Source: an uncultured Alphaproteobacteria bacterium
Lineage (GTDB): Bacteria; Pseudomonadota; Alphaproteobacteria; Puniceispirillales; Marisalimonadaceae
Direction of reading: 5' to 3'
DNA length: 35,036 nucleotides
Assembly (NCBI GenBank): GCA_937142855.1
Contig: CAKZQZ010000008.1
Location: 1-35,036 of the forward strand
Part shown: in pieces, positions 1 through 32,025 of the stretch
How the letters are laid out: the number at the start of each line of letters is the position of its first letter
Position numbering within the stretch: position 1 is the stretch's first letter
Notes under the pieces: generated by a model
What the model was told of the DNA's origin: nothing
Seen by the model: only the letters and a program-made list of their open reading frames with translations
Database searches by the model: none
Made by a program: the position numbers and the translations under genes

Positions 1-324
1 ATATTTAGGATTCCTGTTTTGCTTACTTCAAATCAGAACATTACAGAAAAAACTCATTTATCAATGCAAGGTGGGGTATTTGCGAGTAACATTCTTGAAG
101 ATTCTTACGAATACTTAGATAAAATTGAAAAAACTGAATTTGACAAATGGACATTAGGAGTGCAATCTAGAATTGGACTTTCTTATGACATTAGGACATT
201 CTCATCGGTAGGATTCGGTTACAATTTGCAATACAACTTTTCTGAATTTGGTTCGAGACAAGAATCGGTTAATTCAAGAATGAGCTCGAATTCTTTTGAA
301 ATTAATTTAAAATTCAAGATTTAA
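1..324 (+). CDS. C-terminal end of an outer-membrane beta-barrel protein (partial)
   Basis: The reading frame is open from the left edge, so only the last 107 or so residues are present. They show alternating polar/hydrophobic strands (GVFASNIL, WTLGVQSRIGLSYDI, VGFGYNLQYNF, SNSFEINLKFKI), which is typical of amphipathic outer-membrane beta strands. The final strand ends in F-K-I, like a barrel C-terminal signal. No specific family can be named from this piece; a porin, an LPS-assembly-type barrel or a surface-layer barrel are all possible. An in-frame TTG at 19 is probably not a start because the frame continues to the edge. A strong hairpin terminator follows the stop codon. Confidence 0.6.
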   Translation: MFRIPVLLTSNQNITEKTHLSMQGGVFASNILEDSYEYLDKIEKTEFDKWTLGVQSRIGLSYDIRTFSSVGFGYNLQYNFSEFGSRQESVNSRMSSNSFEINLKFKI

Positions 325-357
325 GCATTGCTAAAGAAAATTTGCATGTGTTGAAAC

Positions 358-385
358 AAATAGCCTTCATTCGTGAAGGCTATTT
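358..385 (+). terminator. Rho-independent terminator with UUCG tetraloop
   Basis: A perfect 12-bp stem (AAATAGCCTTCA / TGAAGGCTATTT) closes a TTCG loop and is followed by AATTTTAAT. It lies 33 bases after the barrel gene's stop codon and would terminate it. Just past this hairpin the base composition changes abruptly to the foreign AT-rich segment. Confidence 0.85.
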
Positions 386-1810
386 AATTTTAATAATGAT
401 AATGAATATTATAACAATATATCGTTAAATTATTTTCCAATTGTTAGTGGATTTAGATTTGAAATTTTACATAATGATAGGACTGTGTTGTTTGGGAATA
501 TAGAAGATGTAAAAAACACAAATATAATATATATATATGTATTATCTGTAAAACCAATTCCTAATAAAAATAAACAAAAAATTATAATACTATTATATAA
601 TAAAAATGATTATTCTCTACTTTTTAAGTGGAGTATTGAACGAAATATCGTTAATAATGATAATGATAAATTAATTTTGCCTTACTCTTATATACTAACT
701 AGTAATAAAAGATATAATAATAATTGCTTAAATGATATTAAATTAGATAGATTTACAATTATTGATGGTGGTATTGATTATGACAGTATTGATTATTATA
801 TTGGTAAAATAAAGACAAATATATATGATAGTATTATTAATAATATTGAATATTCTGGATTTCTATTTAATAAAGTAATTTTTCAAATAAATAATACAGA
901 CCATTTAGATTTAAAAGACATATCTATTTTTAAATATCAAGATAAAAAAATTATCAATTTAGCTTCACTTGATCATGTTAATGAAAATGATATTTTTTTT
1001 AATAGTAAAAAATATAAGGCTAAGGATATAAAAAGGTTGATTTACTATTGGAACCCAAAAAATATATTAATAAACAATGGTTATGGAATACATACATATG
1101 ATAATTATGATAAAAATGATTATTCTGAATATGATAATTTTAATATTGTCTTTAAAACATTACATAATATTGATGATATTATTTCTATTGACATTTTAAA
1201 TACAACATATTCAAATATAAAATATAGATTATCTAAAGTATTAGAAAAAATTATATTCATAAATACAAATACAAATGCTGAAAAACATATTTTTATACAG
1301 AATAAACAAAAAAATATTAAAGCGTTTGATATAGGTGCAAATGATAGGTATATTTTTTATAATGAAAAATATGCTACATCAGATTATATATCACAATTAA
1401 CAAAAGATAATAAGATTTTTGCTAAATCTATTGAATTTCGTATTAAACCTGGTAATTATCAATTATCTTTACCATCAACTAGTGAAAATACAATTAAATC
1501 ATTTAATAATACAAATTCTCTATTAATAGATTCTTCTTCTGATAACTTTTATAGAGCTGTTAATATTACAGAAGACCTAGAAACTAAATTATTAGATTTT
1601 GAATTCAAAATTTATTTTCATACTAATTGTTTATTAGACAATTTAGAAGATAATGTTGGATTTTTATTTGATTATGGTAATTTTTCTGTTAATAATCCAT
1701 TTTTAGGTATATTATATAATAAAGACCATCCATATTTAAATGATGAACATAAAGGTAAATTAATATTATTGAACCAAGAAGCTTATAATAATAGTAATAA
1801 TTATAAATCA
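386..1810 (+). other. Foreign, very AT-rich coding segment, truncated at both ends
   Basis: The frame that becomes the 842-residue reading frame (GTG at 485) is already open without a stop from 377. Its upstream codons read like real protein (…FPIVSGFRFEILHND…), so the true N-terminus is missing and GTG 485 is probably not a start. About 440 residues follow, rich in Asn, Asp, Ile, Tyr and Lys, with almost no G or C in third positions. A sample 60-base line (1081-1140) has 10 G/C, against 23 in 2521-2580. I recognise no domain. Low-complexity protein of this kind is common in AT-rich viruses and protists. Around 1800-1811 it changes without a stop into monooxygenase sequence. A chimeric assembly join or a recombination replacement are the leading explanations. 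Confidence 0.6.
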
Positions 1811-3013
1811 AAATTTTTAATTGCTGCAGTTGGCTGTTTATCAAATACAAATACTCCAAACATTAAAGGATTAAATGATTTTAATGGTCAATATTATCAC
1901 ACTGGAAACTGGCCGCAAAATGGTGTGAATTTTCAAAATAAAAAAGTAGGTCAAATTGGAACCGGTTCAACAGGAATACAGGCCGTTCCTGTTATTGCAG
2001 CTGAAGCCCAACACTTAACAGTTTTTCAAAGAACGGCTAATTACAGTATCCCAGCCAGAAATAAACCCTTGACTGACCAGTTTAAAAAACATGTTAGAGA
2101 AAATTTTAACTTTTATAAAGAGCTTATCAAAAAAACACCTAATGGACATCCATTCGAAATATCGGAAAGACTAGTTTCTGATGTTACAGAAAAAGAAATG
2201 AATGAAATTTACGAGAAAGCTTGGGAGAAAGGTGGGTTGCAATTTCGAGCAACATTTAATGACTTAATAACTAATCTTGAAGCTAACAAAACAGCTTCTG
2301 ATTTTATCAAAAATAAAATTATTCAAACAGTAAAAAACAAAAAATTTGCTAAAATTTTATCAGATATTGATCACCCCTATGCTGGTAAAAGGCCACCAAT
2401 AGATAGTCATTATTTCGAAGCCTACAATAGAGACAATATTGATCTTGTAGATTTAAAAGCTGATCCAATTGAGCATGTAGATAAAAATGGTATCAAAACC
2501 CTTAAGAATTATTTTGACTTAGATATTATAGTTTTTGCTACAGGGTATGACGCCATGACTGGACCTCTTCTAAACATGAATGTTACTGGAAAAAATAACT
2601 TAACATTAAAAGAAGTCTGGGAAGAAGGTCCTAAAACATACTTGGGAATTCAAGTTCCAGGATTTCCTAATTTATTTACTGTTACCGGACCTGGAAGCCC
2701 ATCTGTTTTAACAAACATGCCTATGGCCATTGAACAACATGTTGAATGGATAAGAGATTGTATTCAATTCATGCTTCAAAAAAATTACAATACTATAGAA
2801 GCAAGTAAAAAAGATTCTGAAAAATGGGGAGAAGAAGTTAACAAAGTTGCTAATAGGACATTACTACCTACTGTCAAACACTCATGGTATTTAGGCGCTA
2901 ATATACCAGGAAAACCTCAAGTTTTTATGCCCTATGCTGGTGGTCTACCAAGGTACAGTGAGATTTGCGATGATATCAAAAAAGAAAATTACAAAGGTTT
3001 CATTTTAGCATAA
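1811..3013 (+). pseudogene. Baeyer-Villiger flavin monooxygenase, C-terminal ~400 residues only
   Basis: From about residue 443 of the fused frame the protein is a clear cyclohexanone/phenylacetone-type Baeyer-Villiger monooxygenase. It has the fingerprint FNGQYYHTGNWP (FxGxxxHxxxWP), the NADPH-binding motif GQIGTGSTGIQ, VFQRTANYSIPARN, and the late FATGYDAMTG motif. Such enzymes insert one oxygen atom into ketones using FAD and NADPH. Family members are about 540-600 residues and begin with an FAD-binding GxGxxG Rossmann fold. Those first ~170-180 residues are absent and are replaced by the unrelated AT-rich sequence. As it stands the product could not bind FAD normally. It may be intact in the organism if the join is an assembly artefact. 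It ends 3 bases from the convergent cNMP-domain gene. Confidence 0.85.
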
Positions 3014-3016
3014 TAA

Positions 3017-3493
3017 TTAAATATCTATATTTTGCTGCATCTTACTTATATTTGTTCTTATTTTTTTGATTCTTTCTTCAAGTATATTCTTCTTGGAAGA
3101 TTGCTTAGAAGATAACTGATCCAGCAACAAGGACATTTCATTTGCTAATTCGCTACTTTGTTTGTTTGAATCAATAAGTCTTATTTGCGTTTTTCTTAAA
3201 AGAGCACCAAGTATGACATTTGATTTCATCATTTTCGTAAAATAAGATTTTTGAATTTTTTTCGCGACTAATTTTTGAGTGCAAACTCTTGCCGTCACAG
3301 TTCTTGGAATATTCAGTAAAATAGAGCTTTCACCAAATATTTCACCTGTTCCCAGTCTATTTAGTTTCAAGCCATCTGTAGTTTCTAAATTTACGTAGCC
3401 TTCTAAAATAAGATAAGCCTCTTTAGGTATGCTACCAGCCTTATATATAACTTCACCAGGTTCCCAAATTGCTGAATTACCATTATCTATCAT
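3017..3493 (-). CDS. Cyclic-nucleotide-binding domain protein (no output domain)
   Basis: 158 residues. Residues about 10-100 form a cNMP-binding/CRP-type beta roll: WEPGEVIYKAGSIPKEAYLILEG, then GTGEIFGESSILLNIPRTVTARV, which matches the phosphate-binding cassette consensus (GE…L…R.A). The remainder is helical and lysine-rich with no helix-turn-helix, so it is not a CRP-like transcription factor by itself. It is the last gene of the minus-strand series that starts with DUF4149-pobA-pcaHG and converges on the monooxygenase. Ligand and partner are unknown. It may act as a stand-alone sensor or bind a protein partner. Confidence 0.75.
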   Translation of the reverse strand: MIDNGNSAIWEPGEVIYKAGSIPKEAYLILEGYVNLETTDGLKLNRLGTGEIFGESSILLNIPRTVTARVCTQKLVAKKIQKSYFTKMMKSNVILGALLRKTQIRLIDSNKQSSELANEMSLLLDQLSSKQSSKKNILEERIKKIRTNISKMQQNIDI

Positions 3494-3737: not shown

Positions 3738-4319
3738 TTATAAATTTAAAAAAATCGTTTCTGCATCACCTTGAAGGAAAACATTAAATAAATAATTTTT
3801 TTTATCAATTTTTTTAGCTACCAAAGAACTTTCATCATTATGATTTTCTATAATGAATGATATTAGAGGATCATTTTTTAAATTATCATCATCAAAATAT
3901 ATTCTTGTATTAAGAGACATGTTAAGTCCTCTAGATGAGATAGATAACAAAATGTGAGGGCTCTGAAGTTTACCATCGAAATTCTTAACTGGACCAGGTT
4001 TTAAGGTAAAAAGACTAAACTTTTTTGTAATTTTATCAGGAACAAATCTTGCAAAACCAAAAACGTCAGAATATTTTCCATTCTCATCACTCTGCCATGT
4101 CTCTAATAAAACATCATCAAGAGCTTCTCCTTTCCCATCAAATATAGAGCCTGTTATTTTTATTAAATCTTCACTTTGTTTATTAGGAAAAGGATTTGTC
4201 CCAATATCACTATTGTAAATTCCTTCTATACCGACAGAATTTGGCATGCATCCAATGTGAAGGAAAGGTCCTGCCGTTTGAAATGGTGTCTCTTTATATA
4301 CTTTATTTATATTCTCCAT
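3738..4319 (-). CDS. pcaG: Protocatechuate 3,4-dioxygenase alpha subunit
   Basis: 193 residues from ATG 4319. It carries the intradiol dioxygenase alpha-subunit pattern: TPFQTAGPFLHIGC near the N-terminus, then GSIFDGKGEALDDVLLETWQSDENGKYSD, GFARFVP, FTLKPGPV and SPHILLSISSRGLN. As expected for PcaG, the iron-ligand Tyr/His set is absent; the beta subunit supplies it. The frame extends upstream to 4364, but ATG 4319 follows an AAGGAGG sequence and lies 1 base after the pcaH stop codon, so this start is preferred. With PcaH it forms the enzyme that opens the protocatechuate ring between the two hydroxyls to give 3-carboxy-cis,cis-muconate. Confidence 0.9.
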   Translation of the reverse strand: MENINKVYKETPFQTAGPFLHIGCMPNSVGIEGIYNSDIGTNPFPNKQSEDLIKITGSIFDGKGEALDDVLLETWQSDENGKYSDVFGFARFVPDKITKKFSLFTLKPGPVKNFDGKLQSPHILLSISSRGLNMSLNTRIYFDDDNLKNDPLISFIIENHNDESSLVAKKIDKKNYLFNVFLQGDAETIFLNL

Positions 4320-4320
4320 C

Positions 4321-5046
4321 TCAAAGACCCTCCTTTTTATTCTCAAAATATGTCTGGTTTGCACCCCTTAAAATAATATCAAATTTATAAGCTAGTATAT
4401 TATGTGAACTTGATTTTGATGTATCTAGTAATCCAATTAAACTATTAATTGCTTTCTCATCTGGAATTGAATTTACCATTGGGCATAACTTAATTAGGGG
4501 ATCACCTTCAAAGTACATTTGTGTGATTAACCTTTGCCCAAAACTTTTACCAAATATTGAAAAATGAATATGCATAGGCCTCCACTCTATTCCACGGTTG
4601 GGATAAGGGTATGGTCCTGGTTGAATTGTTAAAAACTCATAATATCCATCTGATGCTGAAATATATCTTCCACAACCTGCAAAGTTGGGGTCTATAGGTG
4701 TGGGGGTTGTATCATTTGGATGTAAGTATTTACCAGAGGCATTGGCTTGCCATATCTCTATAAGAGCTCCTTCAATTGGATTTAAAAATTGATCTTTTAA
4801 GGTGCCATAAACAAGTATTTTATGACCTAATGGGCTATTATTATTTTTTGAAAAATTTAAGGTTAGATCATTATCATTTTTACCAAGAATATCGGTTGTA
4901 AAAACTGGTCCAGAAACTTCAGATAAAGTTGATGGGAAAGAAATTTTTTCTTTTGAAGGAGCTCTCAAAATACTTGATTTATAATCAGGGAAATTTATTC
5001 GAGGTTGAAAATTATAGTTTCTTTCAAGGAGTGATTTTTTTTTCAT
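4321..5046 (-). CDS. pcaH: Protocatechuate 3,4-dioxygenase beta subunit
   Basis: 241 residues from ATG 5046 (an upstream in-frame TTG at 5058 is less likely). The four Fe(III) ligands of the family are all visible: Tyr107 in SGKYLHPND, Tyr146 in QPGPYPYPN, and His159/His161 in RPMHIHFS. DPNFAGCGRYISASDGYYEF is the conserved core between them. It should be the catalytic subunit of the soluble PcaGH complex. It sits between pobA (35 bases upstream) and pcaG (1-base gap), in the order of the pathway. No strong Shine-Dalgarno is visible before ATG 5046. Confidence 0.93.
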   Translation of the reverse strand: MKKKSLLERNYNFQPRINFPDYKSSILRAPSKEKISFPSTLSEVSGPVFTTDILGKNDNDLTLNFSKNNNSPLGHKILVYGTLKDQFLNPIEGALIEIWQANASGKYLHPNDTTPTPIDPNFAGCGRYISASDGYYEFLTIQPGPYPYPNRGIEWRPMHIHFSIFGKSFGQRLITQMYFEGDPLIKLCPMVNSIPDEKAINSLIGLLDTSKSSSHNILAYKFDIILRGANQTYFENKKEGL

Positions 5047-5081
5047 ACAAATACCCAAACATCTAATTACTATTTATTAAA

Positions 5082-6251
5082 TTAAAAAGGCAATCCCACA
5101 TAATTTTCAGCTAAAACAGTTTGAGATGCAATCGAATTTTCTAGATACGCCAATTCAGAATCTTGTATACATTGATCAAAATCAGTTTGCTCTGGAAACT
5201 TATGAAAAGTTGTTGTCATCCACCAACTAAACCTTATAGCCTTCCAAACTCTTGACAAAGCAATTTGCGAGTAAAGTTTTAAATCATTGTCAATATTCAA
5301 TAAATAATGTTTCTTCAATCCATTGTACAAATAATAAACATCTGAAACAGCTAAATTGAGGCCTTTAGCTCCTGTTGGAGGAACAATGTGTGCTGCGTCA
5401 CCAACTAAGAATAATTTTTGCCAACTCATTGGTTCACAAACAAATGATCTTAAAGGAGCTATCGATTTTTCAATAGATTTACCCGTAATAAGAGTATCTG
5501 CTGCATGCGTAGGAAGGCGCTTTTTTAGCTCTTCCCAGAATTTCTTATCAGTCCAATTCTCTATTTTATCAGTTATCGGTGTTTGTATATAGTACCTACT
5601 TAAGTTGCTATTCCTCATAGAAGCTAAAGCAAAGCCATTCCCATGATTTGCATAAATTAACTCATCACTAACTGGCGGCGTTTCTGATAAAATGCCTAAC
5701 CAACCAAATGGATAAACTTTCTCATAAATTTTAGTTAAATTTTGAGGAATAACTTGTCTACTTATACCATGGTAACCATCACAACCAGCTACAAAATCAC
5801 ATTTTATTTTATTTTCTACACCATCTTTTTTGAATGTAACAAAGGGGTTTTTTTGGTCTAAGTCTTGAGGCAACACATCATCAACATTATTGATAATATT
5901 GTTGTTTTCTTTTTCTATTTTTTCATACAAATCCTTAGTGACTTCGGTTTGGCCATATACAGTGACATGTTTATTAGTTAGTTTTTTAAGGTCTATTCTA
6001 AAACCATGGTTTTTAAATGATAATTGAATACCATCATGTACAAAACCTTCTTTATTTAATCTACCTGAAACACCAGCTTTTTGAAGCATTTTTGTTGTCC
6101 CACTTTCTAAAACACCTGCCCTGATTCTTCCAATCACGTGTGATTTAGATTGTTTTTCTAGAACAATGTTATCAATTCCATCTAAGGACAAAAATCTAGA
6201 TAATAAGAGACCTGATGGACCACCTCCAATGATAACAACTTTGGTCCTCAT
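5082..6251 (-). CDS. pobA: 4-hydroxybenzoate 3-monooxygenase
   Basis: 389 residues from ATG 6251, with GGAAA just upstream. Class A flavoprotein hydroxylase: FAD-binding VVIIGGGPSGLLLSRFL at the N-terminus, RIRAGVLESGT (a PobA-specific stretch), DG motif CDFVAGCDGYHG, and GD motif LFLVGDAAHIVPPTGAKGLN. Length matches the Pseudomonas enzyme (394). It hydroxylates 4-hydroxybenzoate to protocatechuate with NAD(P)H and O2, supplying the substrate of the adjacent PcaHG. It lies 28 bases after the DUF4149 gene and is probably in one transcript with it. No PobR-type regulator is adjacent. The later steps (pcaB, C, D) are not in this window. Confidence 0.96.
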   Translation of the reverse strand: MRTKVVIIGGGPSGLLLSRFLSLDGIDNIVLEKQSKSHVIGRIRAGVLESGTTKMLQKAGVSGRLNKEGFVHDGIQLSFKNHGFRIDLKKLTNKHVTVYGQTEVTKDLYEKIEKENNNIINNVDDVLPQDLDQKNPFVTFKKDGVENKIKCDFVAGCDGYHGISRQVIPQNLTKIYEKVYPFGWLGILSETPPVSDELIYANHGNGFALASMRNSNLSRYYIQTPITDKIENWTDKKFWEELKKRLPTHAADTLITGKSIEKSIAPLRSFVCEPMSWQKLFLVGDAAHIVPPTGAKGLNLAVSDVYYLYNGLKKHYLLNIDNDLKLYSQIALSRVWKAIRFSWWMTTTFHKFPEQTDFDQCIQDSELAYLENSIASQTVLAENYVGLPF

Positions 6252-6279
6252 CAATAATTTCCTTTAATAACTATATGGT

Positions 6280-30419: not shown

Positions 30420-32025
30420 TAGTGGCGATATATTTGATTATATTATTATTGGAGGAGGCAGTTCAGGTTCTATTTTAACTAATAGGTTGAGCTCGAATGG
30501 CTCAACTGTTTGTCTTATAGAAGCTGGCCCCAAAGATACTAACCCATATATTCATATTCCTGCTGGATATATAAAGAATATTTTTTCAAAAAAGCTTACA
30601 TGGAATTTTTTTTCAGAACCATCTCCTCATACAAACTTTCGATCATTTTCTTTACCACAAGGTCGCGTTCTTGGTGGATCAAGCTCAATAAACGGCCTTA
30701 ATTACGTTAGAGGACAAAAATATGATTATGATAATTGGGAAAAATTAGGGAATATTGGTTGGGGTTATAAAGATATACTTCCTTATTTTATTAAATCTGA
30801 AAATAGAATATCAACTAAAATTTTTGATAATAGAGGAACTAAGGGTGAGTTACCCATAACTGATCTAGATCTTATTCACCCTCTTTGTGAAGCATTTTTA
30901 AAGGGCACTGACTCATTAGGTATACCTCGAAACGAGGATTACAATAGCGGTAATCAATATGGATCTGGATATTTTCAAAGAGCAATATTTAATGGTTTAC
31001 GATATAGTTCTTCAAAAGCTTTTTTGAAACCTATTCAAAATAAAAAAAATGTTGAATTAAAAGTAAACGCACAAGTTACCTCAATTATTCTTAAAAATAA
31101 CAAAGCTATTGGGGTCAATTACATTTATAAAAATTCAGATACATTAAAGGTTTTAAGGGCAAATAAAGAAATAATACTTTGCGCAGGAGCTATTAATACA
31201 CCCAAAATACTTCAACTATCAGGAATTGGCCCCGCTTCTTTATTATCTGAGAAAGGTATTGAAGTAGTAAATGACTTAAAGGGTGTTGGAAATAATTTAA
31301 GAGATCATTATGGGGTTAGAATGGTCTCTTACTTACAAAATATCAAAACTTTTAATTCTATTGTTCGAGGGCCACCACTTTTATACGAAATATTTAAATG
31401 GATTATCAAGAGACCAAGTGTCTTGTCAGTAAGTCCTTCATTAGTTCACGTTTTTGCTAAATCATCATCAAAACTAGAAATTCCGGATCTTGAATACGTG
31501 ATGTCACCTGCAAGTTTTAAAGAAGGAACTGTTGGTCTTTTGGATAGAATTTCTGGAATGACCTTAGGTGTTTGGCAAACAAGACCTAAAAGTAATGGTT
31601 ATGTTAAAATCAATTCTAAAAACATACATGAACCACCAATAATAAATCCTAATTATTTATCTGATCCCTATGATGTTGACGTATTATTGAAATCTATAAG
31701 AATTGGAAGAAATTTTTTGTCAACTTCTTCGCTTCAACCTTACTTGAATGGTCAAGCAAACCCTTCTAATGATCTTCAAACTGATGATGAACTTTTATCT
31801 TGGGCAAGAAATGAAGGAATTACTGTATACCATATGATAGGGACCGCAAAGATGGGGCACAAATCTGATAAATTGGCAGTAGTGAATAACAAATTACAAG
31901 TTAGAGGTATAGAGTCTTTGAGGATCGCTGATGCTTCAATAATGCCTACCATGCCTTCTGGTAATACTAATGCCCCCACGATGATGATCGCAGAAAAAGC
32001 ATCAGACATGATTTTAGGTAAATAG
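30412..32025 (+). CDS. GMC-family FAD oxidoreductase (choline/alcohol dehydrogenase-like)
   Basis: 537 residues from GTG 30412, which overlaps the previous stop by 8 bases and has GGAA ten bases upstream; TTG 30373 is less likely. FAD-binding IIIGGGSSGSILTNRL (residues 11-26), GMC signature 1 GRVLGGSSSINGLNYVRG, signature 2 GAINTPKILQLSGIGP, catalytic His about 474 in YHMIGTAKMG and Asn about 520 in GNTNAPTMM. It oxidises an alcohol (choline, polyethylene glycol or hydroxy-acid type) to an aldehyde. It is translationally coupled to the SAF-domain oxidoreductase. Confidence 0.9.
   Translation: MSNSGDIFDYIIIGGGSSGSILTNRLSSNGSTVCLIEAGPKDTNPYIHIPAGYIKNIFSKKLTWNFFSEPSPHTNFRSFSLPQGRVLGGSSSINGLNYVRGQKYDYDNWEKLGNIGWGYKDILPYFIKSENRISTKIFDNRGTKGELPITDLDLIHPLCEAFLKGTDSLGIPRNEDYNSGNQYGSGYFQRAIFNGLRYSSSKAFLKPIQNKKNVELKVNAQVTSIILKNNKAIGVNYIYKNSDTLKVLRANKEIILCAGAINTPKILQLSGIGPASLLSEKGIEVVNDLKGVGNNLRDHYGVRMVSYLQNIKTFNSIVRGPPLLYEIFKWIIKRPSVLSVSPSLVHVFAKSSSKLEIPDLEYVMSPASFKEGTVGLLDRISGMTLGVWQTRPKSNGYVKINSKNIHEPPIINPNYLSDPYDVDVLLKSIRIGRNFLSTSSLQPYLNGQANPSNDLQTDDELLSWARNEGITVYHMIGTAKMGHKSDKLAVVNNKLQVRGIESLRIADASIMPTMPSGNTNAPTMMIAEKASDMILGK

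Follow-up and report, generated by a model that had tools for sequence, protein, structure and literature searches.

An in-frame monooxygenase fusion at the left end of an alphaproteobacterial contig is very probably a chimeric extension

Interspecies chimeric contigs are the closest described counterpart of the arrangement considered here, at the left end of contig G000:C8. As in such contigs, the composition changes abruptly at the contig end, the join falls where the sequences are briefly alike, the rest of the locus turns up at an end of a second contig (C73), and the donor at that second end comes from another bacterial lineage. C8 differs in that the searches gave no donor for its AT-rich piece and that its join falls in low-complexity DNA rather than in a conserved motif. 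A second point of comparison is the Baeyer-Villiger/FMO monooxygenases (PF00743, PF13738), as the sequence beyond the join corresponds to the C-terminal three quarters of an orthologue that is intact in the genus, whereas the N-terminal Rossmann part is off C8 and C73 carries approximately the first 57 codons. A third and more general likeness is to giant viruses (Nucleocytoviricota) and protist organelle DNA, in which long, very AT-rich frames that are rich in Asn, Ile and Lys are familiar. AT-rich, possibly non-bacterial DNA occurs in the same bin (the right part of contig C44, and contig C57), but pattern scans of IMG/VR, whose reach is close relatives, gave no virus match for the segment on C8, and its synonymous codon use is unlike that of the AT-rich part of C44.

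The window, that is, the whole stretch of DNA that was analyzed, covers contig C8 from end to end (35,036 bp), in a genome of 2.32 Mb and 122 contigs, and the fusion therefore sits at the left end of the contig. The parts of this end are as follows.

1 to 324, plus strand: open reading frame for the C-terminal 107 residues of a protein, beta-barrel-like by eye, open at the left end of the contig.
358 to 385, plus strand: hairpin resembling an intrinsic terminator (12 pairs, loop of 4), followed by a T-rich tail.
386 to 1775, plus strand: AT-rich coding segment, foreign by composition, an internal protein fragment without its own start or stop (no stops in 466 codons, third-position GC 0.087).
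1776 to 1811, plus strand: junction zone, AT-rich and of low complexity, partly similar to the host sequence of the related genome G028 (blastn, ungapped comparison).
1799 to 3013, plus strand: C-terminal 404 residues of the host flavin monooxygenase (Baeyer-Villiger/FMO type), by similarity to the orthologues of the genus.
3017 to 3493, minus strand: host neighbor, presumably CRP-like, with 74-86% identity to the gene that adjoins the monooxygenase in the loci of nine relatives.

An earlier note on this DNA had described a terminator at 358-385, a fall in composition just after it and a recovery near position 1800. The hairpin has the structure expected, and the GC contents of consecutive 400-bp windows, counted from base 1, are 0.30, 0.19, 0.17, 0.20 and 0.26, in agreement with that description. 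The values of 0.17-0.20 for the windows in the AT-rich segment are at or beyond the edge of the range for interior 400-bp windows of the same genome (0.195-0.448; n = 1273). From 386 to about 1780 the GC content is ~19%, and one plus-strand frame stays open for 466 codons. No stop occurs in that frame between 386 and 1785, against 25-112 in each of the other five, and 2000 Markov simulations of equal composition gave no stop-free run longer than 135; 386-1785 is therefore a genuine coding frame. GC at its codon positions 1, 2 and 3 is 0.279, 0.205 and 0.087, and the third-position value is below that of every host stop-free frame with 300 codons or more (n = 251; minimum third-position GC 0.138, minimum total GC 0.214). 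A k-mer comparison, which had been proposed as a check, gave the same picture, as the 3-mer distance of the segment from the host was equalled by none of 2000 host stretches of 1400 bp.

The long Asn/Ile/Lys-rich frame of the segment has neither a beginning nor an end of its own. An in-frame TGA in the terminator stem precedes its opening, its first ATG, GTG or TTG is the GTG at 485, and it passes into the monooxygenase frame without a stop, to end at 3013. The stop and start scan and the composition thus agree with the earlier view of a foreign AT-rich frame that is open at both ends, is already open upstream of any start codon and is fused in frame to the monooxygenase, although the open frame before the join measures ~466-470 codons rather than the 440 residues first given. 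Single-sequence structure prediction for the AT-rich protein gave a mean pLDDT of 31.2 and no usable fold.

On the other side of the junction the sequence is readily placed. Similarity to the loci of 19 relatives begins in blastn between 1776 and 1811, depending on the relative, and an ungapped comparison with seven relatives puts the join within an AT-rich, low-complexity stretch that is rich in Asn codons. The host part is 88% identical to G028:C7 2096-3304, in the nearest relative, and 75-80% identical to 29 other orthologues in the genus, and the FMO-like and Pyr_redox_3 matches of this remainder are under the curated Pfam cut-offs. Because the protein of the nearest relative has 538 amino acids, of which 404 align here, ~134 residues are missing at the N-terminus, fewer than the ~170-180 estimated before. 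The full N-terminal FAD-binding part is not on C8, and the proteins of the relatives are complete. Beside the monooxygenase, at 3738-6254 of the window, there are three frames that perhaps form an aromatic-degradation cluster of the host part; we take two of them to be intradiol-dioxygenase-like and one to be 4-hydroxybenzoate-hydroxylase-like.

Orthologues of at least 75% identity were found in 30 of the 36 same-genus genomes searched (the other six had no such match), and all 30 are intact frames of 537-555 codons in which the fusion is absent. The occurrence of the same fusion in an independent genome, which would speak against a chimeric join, was looked for, and the AT-rich protein was found in none of the 39 other genomes of the genus; the collection has one genome per species, and these 39 hold no second genome of this species. 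Gene order is continuous in the nine relatives whose flanks were read, and the genes, under names that we assume for the neighbors, are MmgE/PrpD-like, hydrolase-like (membrane-hydrolase-like), the N-terminal and then the C-terminal part of the monooxygenase, and CRP-like, with the outermost gene truncated by the contig start in G028 and G016. The window holds only the last two parts of this order, the C-terminal part of the monooxygenase and the CRP-like gene.

Where, then, is the rest of the gene? When the genome itself was searched with G028:C7 1-2140 as the query, 1-1863 matched G000:C73 29195-31055 at 83% and 2070-2140 matched C8 1776-1846 at 86%, and between both matches only a paralogue on C66 was found (G028 1805-1945, 73%). 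The host locus is thus split over two contigs, with one gene in two pieces. Its true continuation, the upstream half, is elsewhere in the assembly at C73:29195-31055, and the gap between the host parts of C73 and C8 is ~206 bp (G028 1864-2069, in G028 coordinates). Past 31055, another 792 bp take C73 to its end at 31847 with the monooxygenase frame kept, at a GC content of 0.46-0.58 versus ~0.30 before, so that the contig leaves the host early in the gene. This end carries one feature.

C73:31056-31847, right contig end: monooxygenase, OM182-like and presumably gammaproteobacterial, joined in frame to the start (~57 codons) of the host gene.

For the last 263 residues encoded on C73, identity is 95% with a Pseudomonadales MAG and 90% with the OM182 MED-G155 MAG, both of which we take to be gammaproteobacterial, and the DNA past the break is foreign. 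The join lies around a coding stretch for the conserved GTWYWNRYPGA, where the DNA of the host relative, of OM182 and of the contig is highly similar. Each side of C73 matches a different genome, namely host relatives on one side and the MAGs on the other, and the C73 join is thus shown from the donor side as well. On C8 the host side matches relatives and the 386-1780 side, foreign by composition, had no donor match in the searches made. Two contigs of one genome therefore break in the same gene, and each then runs into non-host-like DNA.

The same kind of fault is present at the right end of C1, where GC jumps inside etfA to 0.44-0.51 and the frame is kept. Contig C90 (1-810) opens within an etfA and has a GC content of mostly 0.31-0.41, with one 90-bp block of 0.56. 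Compared in the same register, the two contigs share 258 of 270 bases up to the jump and 331 of 540 beyond it. By this alignment C90 carries the host continuation of C1, and the level of agreement in the overlap suggests mixed strains rather than one cell.

Taken with the composition of the segment, the sequences at these contig ends make it very probable that C8 was wrongly extended at its left end, and that bases 1 to ~1800 of the window are chimeric and not part of the chromosome of the bacterium as drawn. Host sequence would stop inside the monooxygenase gene, and the contig would have been prolonged into another AT-rich genome (386 to ~1780) by way of a brief AT-rich sequence similar to the host gene. 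The intact locus most likely encodes an ordinary flavin monooxygenase of ~538 residues, with its 5' part on C73 across the ~206-bp gap. The joins were most likely made by the metagenome assembler, at stretches common to several organisms, rather than by amplification. An assembler may join in frame when two organisms share a stretch at least as long as the overlap or k-mer length, and the joins at C73 and C1, which are in frame and at homologous conserved positions, are what is expected of assembly across shared sequence. The C8 join in the Asn-codon-rich AT stretch may be a low-complexity version of the same thing. The preference of the earlier note for a chimeric join has gained from the finding of the other half of the gene on the chimeric end of C73 and from the C1/C90 fault. 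What the note called a replacement, not a simple insertion, is better seen as a contig that leaves the host genome.

A less likely route to the same artefact, though one to be taken seriously, is a physical one, in which template switching during phi29 MDA or library preparation joined DNA from co-sampled organisms. This alternative concerns the step of origin only, and the likelihood we allow it is contained in that of a chimeric extension as a whole. The position of the C8 junction in a short AT-rich stretch is in its favor, as is the priming of MDA chimeras at 2-21 nt of complementarity in more than 70% of junctions (PMC1855051). The same paper describes MDA rearrangements as more than 85% inverted, with intramolecular joins favored (PMC1855051), which fits less well, since the joins at C73 and C1 are direct, keep the frame and connect homologous positions within the same gene. 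The mixed strains suggested by the 258 of 270 bases alike in the C1/C90 overlap, as opposed to a single cell, also weigh against amplification and leave the assembler as the preferred source of the chimeric ends.

The terminal 385 bp deserve separate mention, as their origin bears on whether a real event could have taken place. The protein encoded by bases 1-324 had no match in the 39 other genomes of the genus and a single, distant one among 397 further genomes of the phylum (E 9.8e-4, 73 residues aligned, 27% identical). A pattern scan of IMG/VR, which reaches close relatives, found none, and there was no Pfam match at the cut-off (best Dit_N, E 0.024) and none in NCBIfam. The GC content is host-like, and the 3-mer composition of the left end is compatible with the host, in that 14% of host stretches deviate equally. 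Judged from these comparisons, bases 1-385 would belong either to a third source or to another part of the host genome, and their compatibility with the host would leave some small residual chance to a host-foreign-host arrangement.

A real event, in which foreign AT-rich DNA recombined into the chromosome, removed the 5' part of the monooxygenase and created the fusion, is nonetheless very unlikely. The host-like composition of bases 1-385 and the preservation of the frame across the junction would suit such an event, but the supposedly removed 5' part is still in the genome, on C73, together with its usual upstream neighbors, and the C73 end is itself chimeric and stops ~206 bp (in G028 coordinates) short of the host part of C8. 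Moreover, the foreign frame offers no start codon before 485, and none of the 30 orthologues has the fusion. Still less probable is the particular case in which part of a viral or protist gene, very rich in AT, was really and recently captured by a probably marine bacterium, in frame with the monooxygenase, in one strain of a mixed population. It is equally hard to credit that the segment is a gene of the host lineage with an odd composition, for instance one for a fast-changing surface protein. Host interior windows do reach down to a GC content of 0.195, but the third-position GC of 0.087 is below the host minimum of 0.138 in 251 frames, the 3-mer distance was reached by none of the 2000 host stretches of 1400 bp, the protein is missing from all 39 other genomes of the genus, and the segment has no beginning or end of its own.

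As for the source of the AT-rich segment, a giant virus or protist origin of 386-1780 is possible, in line with the viral or eukaryotic source that the earlier note suggested. The AT-rich protein had no Pfam or NCBIfam family, no match among PDB sequences, and none in four IMG/VR pattern scans with different parts of it or in one pattern scan of GTDB genome contigs, scans whose reach is close relatives. These searches covered protein-family, bacterial, phage, IMG/VR and PDB sets. A phage gene was considered and set aside, given a best PHROG E value of 0.74 and an empty tblastn search of 50,697 phage records (E up to 10). A mobile-element origin was likewise dropped, as there is no tRNA in the window and no repeat with copies at both boundaries of the segment; the repeats of at least 18 nt within 1-3100 are short and imperfect (direct repeats of up to 43 nt, inverted repeats of up to 28 nt). 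A few short matches (20-49 bases) of the segment to the remaining contigs of the assembly were put down to chance in low-complexity sequence. A single donor for the segment and the AT-rich part of C44 was unsupported, with a synonymous-codon distance of 7.09 versus 7.47 to the host and an AGA share of arginine codons of 0.45 against 0.95 in the comparison of the segment with the C44 part.

The fusion protein should not count as a gene of this organism, and the main worth of the finding is as a warning. The genome is listed as 100% complete and 1.83% contaminated, yet some of its contig ends run into other DNA. As the frame is kept at C8, C73 and C1, the joins mimic gene fusions or horizontal transfer, and claims of fusion or lateral transfer that draw on the contig ends of this assembly are untrustworthy without reads.

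Other contig ends of the assembly bear similar marks. Seventy of the 122 contigs were examined, whole or at one or both ends, and with 13 that had more than 10% N left out, 57 contigs contributed 99 of the 244 contig ends in the genome. An end was counted as an outlier when its terminal 400 bp fell outside the central 99% of interior GC. Seven of the 99 ends were outliers, with ~1 expected, and among control left ends there were 1 of 20 in G013 and 0 of 20 in G014; the excess rests on small numbers. The left end of C8 is not counted among these, since GC is host-like over its outermost 385 bp. The right end of C1 (GC-rich etfA and its neighbors) and the right end of C73 (the OM182-like gene) are among the seven. 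GC is abruptly higher at three more, namely the right end of C31 (a terminase small subunit), the right end of C26 (a GntR regulator) and the left end of C32 (a frame without a Pfam match, phage-like by eye). The left end of C1 is a 16S rRNA end and is probably genuine. At the right end of C3, a gene of ~50% GC, which we presume to be EF-Tu-like, lies near tRNA genes at the contig end, and this end may be native.

Two contigs also carry AT-rich DNA. On C44, near 3900-4000, genes of 36-42% GC (an aminotransferase and an MFS transporter) give way to a block of 18-31% GC that has genes of the ManC, GDP-fucose-synthase and GDP-mannose-dehydratase types, as well as a LAGLIDADG-like stretch that falls short of the Pfam cut-off. 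The fucose-synthase-type protein has one relative in IMG/VR, at 37%, and the block is possibly giant-virus DNA. C57 carries an AT-rich gene of NADH-dehydrogenase-subunit type, presumably nad4-like, in which three TGA codons are read as Trp under table 4, as in protist mitochondria. The gene probably represents mitochondrial DNA of a protist that ended up in the bin and may be joined to bacterial DNA, and the content of C44 and C57 together indicates that AT-rich, possibly non-bacterial DNA is present in the bin.
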